Shown here one piece after another: positions 43,734 to 44,143 of a DNA stretch of 64,000 bases; the first letter of the stretch is position 1, and every line of letters begins with the position of its first letter. Origin of the DNA: Tepidiforma thermophila (GTDB lineage Bacteria; Chloroflexota; Dehalococcoidia; Tepidiformales; Tepidiformaceae); assembly GCF_002563855.1 (NCBI RefSeq), contig NZ_PDJQ01000001.1, forward strand, positions 310,001 through 374,000, written 5' to 3'. The position numbers and the translations under genes were made by a program. Below the pieces are notes generated by a model that was given only the letters and a program-made list of their open reading frames with translations, did no database searches and had not been told where the DNA came from.

Positions 43734-43761
43734 TTGACAAGCCCGGCGGAGGGACTAGCCT
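43734..43761 (+). promoter_or_regulatory. promoter of the structured RNA unit
   Basis: TTGACA at 43734-43739, a 16-base spacer, and TAGCCT at 43756-43761. Transcription should begin near 43768. This is the best -35/-10 pair in the area. Confidence 0.65.
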
Positions 43762-43767
43762 GTAAGG

Positions 43768-44143
43768 TGAGGATGCGATAGGCGCCCGGTGCTGAAGAGG
43801 CCCGGTCTCCGCCGACTCGCAGAGACTCGAAAGGAGGGACGGATATGCGGAACAAGCTGCACGCCCTCTACGGAGTCTTCATCGTGCAGAGGCCCGGCCT
43901 GCAGTAGGCAGGCCGAACGCCAGCCGCCGCGGGCCCGTATCCACGGTGTTGCCCCAGGTGCCCGGGTGCAGATGAAGTCCAGTGCGATGCTGGCGCCCCG
44001 GATCGCTCCGTGAAGGAGCGGCAACGGATACGGACGTCCCGGCCGAACGGCGGCAACCTCCAGCCGGTGCAGCGCCCGGCGGCCGGCTGAGGAGGCGAAC
44101 GGATACCGGACAGGCCCCGCAGGCGCGGGGCCTGTTTGCGTTT
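43768..44143 (+). ncRNA. candidate structured RNA, about 375 nt, or long leader of the cupredoxin gene
   Basis: No protein gene fits this 500-base gap, but its predicted transcript is full of compensating helices. CTGCACG/CGTGCAG (43857-43863 with 43883-43889) encloses a UACG-tetraloop stem. GGCCTGC/GCAGGCC pairs 43896-43902 with 43908-43914. A long arm combines GCCGCC/GGCGGC (43923/44049), CCGTATCC/GGATACGG (43935/44026) and GTTGCC/GGCAAC (43948/44020), capped by GCTCC-GTGAA-GGAGC. CAGCCGG/CCGGCTG pairs 44061 with 44082. It ends in an intrinsic terminator. It does not match RNase P RNA, tmRNA, SRP RNA or 6S RNA in sequence. A 20-codon frame at 43845 with AAGGAGG before it is a possible leader peptide. 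Confidence 0.6.
44111..44143 (+). terminator. intrinsic terminator of the structured RNA unit
   Basis: CAGGCCCCGC (44111-44120), loop AGGC, GCGGGGCCTG (44125-44134), then TTTGCGTTT. This is the clearest rho-independent terminator in the window. It ends 47 bases before the next start codon, so it could also work as an attenuator for that gene. Confidence 0.85.

Follow-up and report, generated by a model that had tools for sequence, protein, structure and literature searches.

Introduction

Known arrest peptides act as leaders of genes under their control. The described leaders ErmBL, TnaC and SecM are translated from very short ORFs led by a Shine-Dalgarno (SD) sequence, with a variable N-terminus and conserved C-terminal residues beside the stall. 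The stall on ErmBL has Asp10 in the P site and requires the residues Val9-Asp10-Lys11 (PMC4935803). The E. coli dnaX pausing and frameshift signal combines an SD-like sequence with a stem-loop further downstream, and its spacer is 5 nt (PMC8861025). Two types of bacterial RNA are also close. Downstream-peptide RNA, or yfr6, of cyanobacteria is a transcript of about 250 nt with a short conserved ORF whose product belongs to no known protein family, and its conserved RNA is a riboswitch-like motif in the 5' UTR (PMC2864571, RF01704). Stand-alone structured RNAs in Rfam, for example Chloroflexi-1, have their own promoter and terminator and covarying helices.

The locus presented here lies in a window of 64,000 nucleotides from Tepidiforma thermophila, a member of the Chloroflexota (contig NZ_PDJQ01000001.1, positions 310,001 to 374,000 of the forward strand), and all positions without a contig name count from the first letter of this window. 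A preliminary description had taken the unit for a structured RNA with no credible protein gene. The unit does exist and is conserved, but it is a coding one. It resembles the arrest leaders in its very short SD-led ORF, variable N-terminus and conserved C-terminal residues beside the putative stall; the VD[KR] likeness between Val9-Asp10-Lys11 of ErmBL and ..QVD[KRS] of the micro-ORF family is a lead and not a test of kinship. Unlike them, the micro-gene has no regulated cis gene or known drug and carries its own terminator, and it also possesses an SD-like codon and a hairpin at constant spacing. A stem-loop 5-7 nt past the codon entering the A site and an SD-like sequence upstream are shared with dnaX; however, the codons are not slippery, there is no frameshifted product, and the ORF of 13-21 codons is free-standing. 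In contrast to yfr6, the conserved elements are found inside and after the ORF, with no Rfam match. The promoter, terminator and covarying helices are those of a stand-alone RNA such as Chloroflexi-1, but the micro-gene is translated and matches no Rfam family.

Results

The features of the unit are as follows.

43734-43761, plus strand: sigma-70-type promoter, TTGACA (43734-43739), N16, TAGCCT (43756-43761), read from the sequence
43830-43837, plus strand: SD AAAGGAGG, with the ATG 7 nt further on, read from the sequence
43845-43907, plus strand: micro-ORF MRNKLHALYGVFIVQRPGLQ and stop, core LYGVFIVQ, kept over 24 GTDB families with a third-position substitution pattern
43872-43875, plus strand: SD-like GGAG, formed by the Gly10 codon GGA and the first base of Val11, 8 nt before the Val14 codon
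43884-43889, plus strand: Val14-Gln15 codons GTG CAG, putative pause site (V in the P site, Q in the A site)
43896-43914, plus strand: hairpin HP1, GGCCTGC/GCAGGCC, with C-G/U-A covariation
43923-44054, plus strand: long-range helix P2 with nested hairpins, long-range pairing in 22/22 family members
43923-43929 and 44048-44054, plus strand: P2 block 1, GCCGCCG/CGGCGGC
43935-43942 and 44026-44033, plus strand: P2 block 2, CCGTATCC/GGATACGG
43948-43953 and 44020-44025, plus strand: P2 block 3, GTTGCC/GGCAAC
43979-43993, plus strand: nested hairpin inside CCAGTGCGATGCTGG, covarying columns 155-169 of alignment A4
44004-44020, plus strand: nested hairpin CGCTCC-GTGAA-GGAGCG, covarying columns 181-199 of alignment A4
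44062-44088, plus strand: region of the late stem AGCCGG/CCGGCT, covarying columns 242-271 of alignment A4
44111-44141, plus strand: terminator-like hairpin CAGGCCCCGC/GCGGGGCCTG followed by TTTGCGT, from a terminator consensus scan and conservation

The micro-ORF consists of 20 codons, from ATG at 43845 to TAG at 43907. HP1 starts 6 nt past the Gln15 codon (spacer 43890-43895), and the stop codon is located inside the HP1 loop. The promoter and intrinsic terminator of the preliminary description are both present. The -35 box is kept in the relatives, whose -10 box is usually better than TAGCCT (for example TAATGT), while the terminator stem 44111-44120/44125-44134 is conserved from genus to genus and its tail has just three consecutive T. 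In 18 aligned members the outer stem is invariant and the tail nearly invariant. The terminator-region sequence CAGGCCCC to GGGGCCTG with TTTGCGT (44111-44141, A4 columns 293-325) is nearly invariant across genera, though its pairs could covary; a second, sequence-specific role is possible.

The RNA of the unit folds better than its shuffles (z -2.9, 0/100 shuffles), as expected from the highly structured RNA that had been described. The composite arm at 43923-44054 is a genuine nested long-range helix, pairing in all 22 family members examined and usually through different sequences. The fold energy of this region has a mean z of -2.4 against shuffles, but is close to zero within the genus, which is very GC-rich. 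Compensatory changes within the family are seen in three further helices of the earlier description: the 7-bp stem 43896/43908 (HP1), the GTGAA-capped hairpin and the late stem (alignment A4). Two other proposed elements do not stand. The 7-bp stem 43857/43883 loses a pair in several genera (CTGCAC to CTTCAC) and shows no compensatory change, and the C(UACG)G tetraloop is simply the codons CTC-TAC-GGA, altered in about half of the relatives. Both are rejected as RNA elements and are by-products of the coding sequence.

A search of the window with Rfam 15, at gathering and permissive thresholds, gave no match in the unit, in agreement with the earlier statement that it lacks the signatures of RNase P, tmRNA, SRP and 6S RNA; at the gathering threshold there was also none among 20 diverse relative loci. 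The unit does not match RNase P RNA (RF00010), which maps elsewhere in this genome (C1:2303574-2303943). A ZMP/ZTP riboswitch (RF01750, 21022-21102, minus strand, 46.3 bits) is the sole gathering-level Rfam match in the window. Pfam and NCBIfam profiles gave no match to the peptide up to E = 10, and the PDB contained no relative. No described counterpart was found in the literature searched by motif string and topic, most subscription journals lying outside the scope of that search.

The DNA of the unit is 87-97% identical within the genus and matches more weakly across the family, and the ORF, not the helices, is the best conserved part. Among 22 family members the differences are distributed over the three codon positions as 346/313/996, and 54% of the codon differences are synonymous, compared with 23% expected and 12-16% in shifted frames. 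These third-position changes and the synonymous excess show that the micro-ORF is under coding selection. The claim that no credible protein gene is present is wrong, the ORF behind AAAGGAGG being the most conserved section of the unit.

Peptide profiles A1, A2 and A3 were run over genomes of the class and phylum, and the hits were filtered for an SD and a short ORF. After this filter 85 loci remained, from 24 GTDB families of Chloroflexota. The peptides are 13-21 residues long, with the core [YFL]GV[WLF][QI]V[DQ]; the stop usually follows 0-5 codons past the core, and the N-terminus is free in length and sequence. Examples, each ending at a stop, are MRLHKLYGVWEVDK, MAQILYGVWQVDK, MVRLHKLFGVLQVDR and MNNRIRWGVWQVDW. 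Position 14 is Val in 82/85 loci and position 15 is Asp or Gln in 84/85. This is a short ORF with a constrained C-terminal peptide, as in arrest leaders. A strong SD at 4-10 nt spacing occurs in most loci, which were also filtered on the SD, so that this is no independent test. The weaker loci among the 85 are perhaps partly false; the GGA, hairpin and TTGAC comparisons below use features outside the locus selection. The 85 loci share ancestry, and the counts are descriptive and not independent trials. A narrower IVQ pattern, searched over 84,980 species, matched only in records of Chloroflexota/Chloroflexi, Tepidiforma, Dehalococcoidia, Thermoflexaceae, Anaerolinea or untyped 'bacterium'. It is almost certain that a conserved, coding, stand-alone micro-gene exists.

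The constraint on the ORF extends to the codon level at one glycine. The Gly codon of the core is GGA in 69/85 loci and GGG in 12/85, against a GGA background of 10.9% in nearby genes, and a GGR codon is found in 23/24 families. Because Val follows this Gly codon, an SD-like GGRG is located 8 nt before the V codon. The first base of a hairpin is found 5-7 nt past the D/Q codon in 63/85 loci, compared with 3% of shuffles and 8/255 control positions, and this arrangement is seen in 21/24 families. The stop codon ends 3, 6, 18, 36, 54 or more nt (3-78) past the D/Q codon across the loci. Since this distance varies, the hairpin is placed by the decoded codon and not by the stop. With V in the P site and Q/D entering the A site, the same 63/85 loci have the hairpin 11-13 nt past the first V-codon base, and from this placement we infer a pause. 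The arrangement of dnaX-type signals, in which a stem-loop is placed 11-12 nt past the first base in the P site whatever the codon, is present here. The spacings of the cassette match those at which mRNA stem-loops pause ribosomes. The rare Gly codon, the peptide core and the hairpin at a fixed distance look built for a ribosome pause. The sequence gives good support for a ribosome-pausing cassette, which is more likely than not.

The 3' region differs in other families, and in L045, L098, L105, L109 and L100 it consists of only a terminator; therefore it is not a universal part of the unit. A conserved internal-loop motif that is absent from Rfam, ACCTCAGGCTAnRCCC ... GGGTAGATGTCCTGAT-like sequence, recurs in the 3' domains of L093, L097, L134, L140 and L170. 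A second copy in the T. thermophila genome, L053 near C1:2082485 (minus strand), has two tandem micro-ORFs. The first retains the core without an adjacent hairpin, and the second stands beside a hairpin and has lost GVxxV. The two-tandem-ORF type also occurs at L018, L021, L054, L055 and L059; in this type the second ORF keeps an IHALxRxW-like stretch and the hairpin, without the GVxxV core.

The promoter is found widely as well. The motif TTGAC occurs at -165 to -25 in 63/84 loci and in 6/82 control segments, and upstream of the ORF in 20/24 families; promoters scoring at least 9/12 were found in 49 loci and in 5 shuffles. In the genus and a few genera close to it, the next gene encodes a cupredoxin-like protein (with no Pfam match); in other lineages it is rpiB-, pyrE- or SIR2-like, by sequence. 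It is often on the opposite strand, and 7/7 such proteins tested were confirmed by Pfam (thiolase, threonyl-tRNA synthetase domain, racemase, JAB, VTT, phosphoribosyltransferase and oxidoreductase). A regulated same-strand gene downstream, which arrest leaders have, was not found, the neighbours varying among loci. Since they vary by lineage and are often on the opposite strand, the unit is a stand-alone gene and not a copper-responsive leader. The long leader responding to copper or redox that had been suggested is rejected, as the neighbours are not conserved and its support is limited to one neighbourhood. The other suggestion, a stand-alone undescribed structured RNA, is correct as to the unit's own promoter, terminator and covarying helices and the lack of an Rfam family, and incorrect as to its noncoding nature, given the 20-codon ORF at its heart.

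Discussion

The arrangement of these elements allows us to propose a mechanism. Translation of the micro-gene transcript, about 43768-44141 (~375 nt), would begin behind the SD at 43830 and yield a peptide of 20 residues. With Val14 in the P site and Gln15 entering the A site, three elements at fixed spacings would act on one ribosome. The first is the SD-like GGAG, 8 nt ahead of the Val codon; the second is the conserved stretch LYGVFIV of the nascent chain inside the tunnel; the third is HP1, located at the mRNA entry and 12 nt past the first base in the P site. Their joint effect would be a pause of the ribosome, whose occupancy would then set the folding, function or survival of the structured 3' region. 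We infer both the pause and its control of the RNA from sequence, and give this reading, a micro-ORF on which the ribosome brakes at V14-Q15 and which is coupled to a structured RNA on its 3' side, a probability of roughly 0.55. Some findings speak against the pause. The position of HP1, +13/+14, equals or slightly exceeds the optimal pausing distance measured for stems of 11-12 bp, and HP1 often has only 7-9 bp; the two-ORF copies L018, L021 and L053-L055 have an intact core without an adjacent hairpin. The short versions L045, L098 and L100 have no long 3' structure, which therefore is not essential everywhere.

No feature of the family is more conserved than the peptide core, and copies with only an ORF and a terminator exist (the five listed above). 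This might indicate that the micropeptide itself is the product: 13-21 residues with a conserved C-terminal GVWQVD-like core, acting in the cell, while GGA and the hairpin only tune expression or mRNA stability. However, a mere product needs neither a codon-level Gly constraint nor a hairpin fixed to a codon and not to the stop; the N-terminus, free in length and sequence, is typical of arrest peptides, and the peptide has no Pfam, NCBIfam or PDB relative. We regard this explanation as unlikely. Somewhat less likely still is a dual-function small RNA, the 3' region of which would act in trans on RNAs or proteins with the ORF as a second or stabilising function. It would account for the covarying 3' domain in 22 family members, the nearly invariant terminator-region sequence CAGGCCCC to GGGGCCTGTTTGCGT and the stand-alone position of the unit, but the 3' domain is very different between families and missing in the short versions, while the ORF cassette persists.

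A role in cis, in which a ribosome pausing on the ORF would determine whether transcription passes the terminator into the following gene (here cupredoxin-like), is improbable, since the downstream gene changes by lineage and is often on the opposite strand (Pfam 7/7 tested). Close same-strand genes do occur in some lineages: the cupredoxin-like gene in the genus, a SIR2-like gene in f21, pyrE-like genes downstream of L160/L168/L169, rpiB-like genes downstream of L058/L061/L063, and genes with signal-peptide-like starts in G249. The SD-like sequence, spacer and hairpin also resemble the dnaX arrangement (PMC8861025), which would suit a programmed frameshift site. This is very improbable, because GUN-GAY and GUN-CAG are not slippery and neither length nor product is conserved in the -1 and +1 frames past the site; a programmed -1 frameshift was rejected, as both the slippery heptamer and a conserved alternative-frame product are missing.

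If the proposed braking is correct, a conserved arrest-like cassette that stands alone in 24 families of a single phylum and has no constant gene behind it would mean that ribosome pausing is put to a different use. Such a gene would be widespread and yet missed by annotation and RNA-family pipelines, being too short as a protein and too coding as an RNA. A broader and more tentative proposal, to which we give rather less than even odds, is that these are phylum-wide 'ribosome-parking' RNAs of a previously undescribed class: housekeeping micro-genes that would be translated solely to keep a ribosome at one codon through the combined action of SD-like pairing, nascent chain and hairpin. The ribosome so parked, or its release, would control a trans-acting structured RNA or report the translation state. 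The predictions are sharp and cheap: they concern a single synonymous codon, a single hairpin and a handful of residues.

Several individual loci should also be mentioned. At L160, L168 and L169, from two different families, copies with MNNRIRWGVWQVD[W] and a stop are found just 5' of a pyrE-like gene and are possibly a cis-regulated subtype. At L118, L142, L143 and L144 (G249) and at L114 (G257) the GVWQVD cassette occurs 5' of genes with signal-peptide-like starts or of a metalloprotease-like gene. In G249 the core runs in frame into the pseudoknot-like CCTGCCCTTCTGGCACAGGGATTGGGCGGG, followed directly by the genes, and the cassette may act there as a leader. Among L016, L034 and L039, another promoter with AAAGGAGGTGG stands immediately 3' of the unit in at least L016 and L039 and is possibly a second micro-gene.
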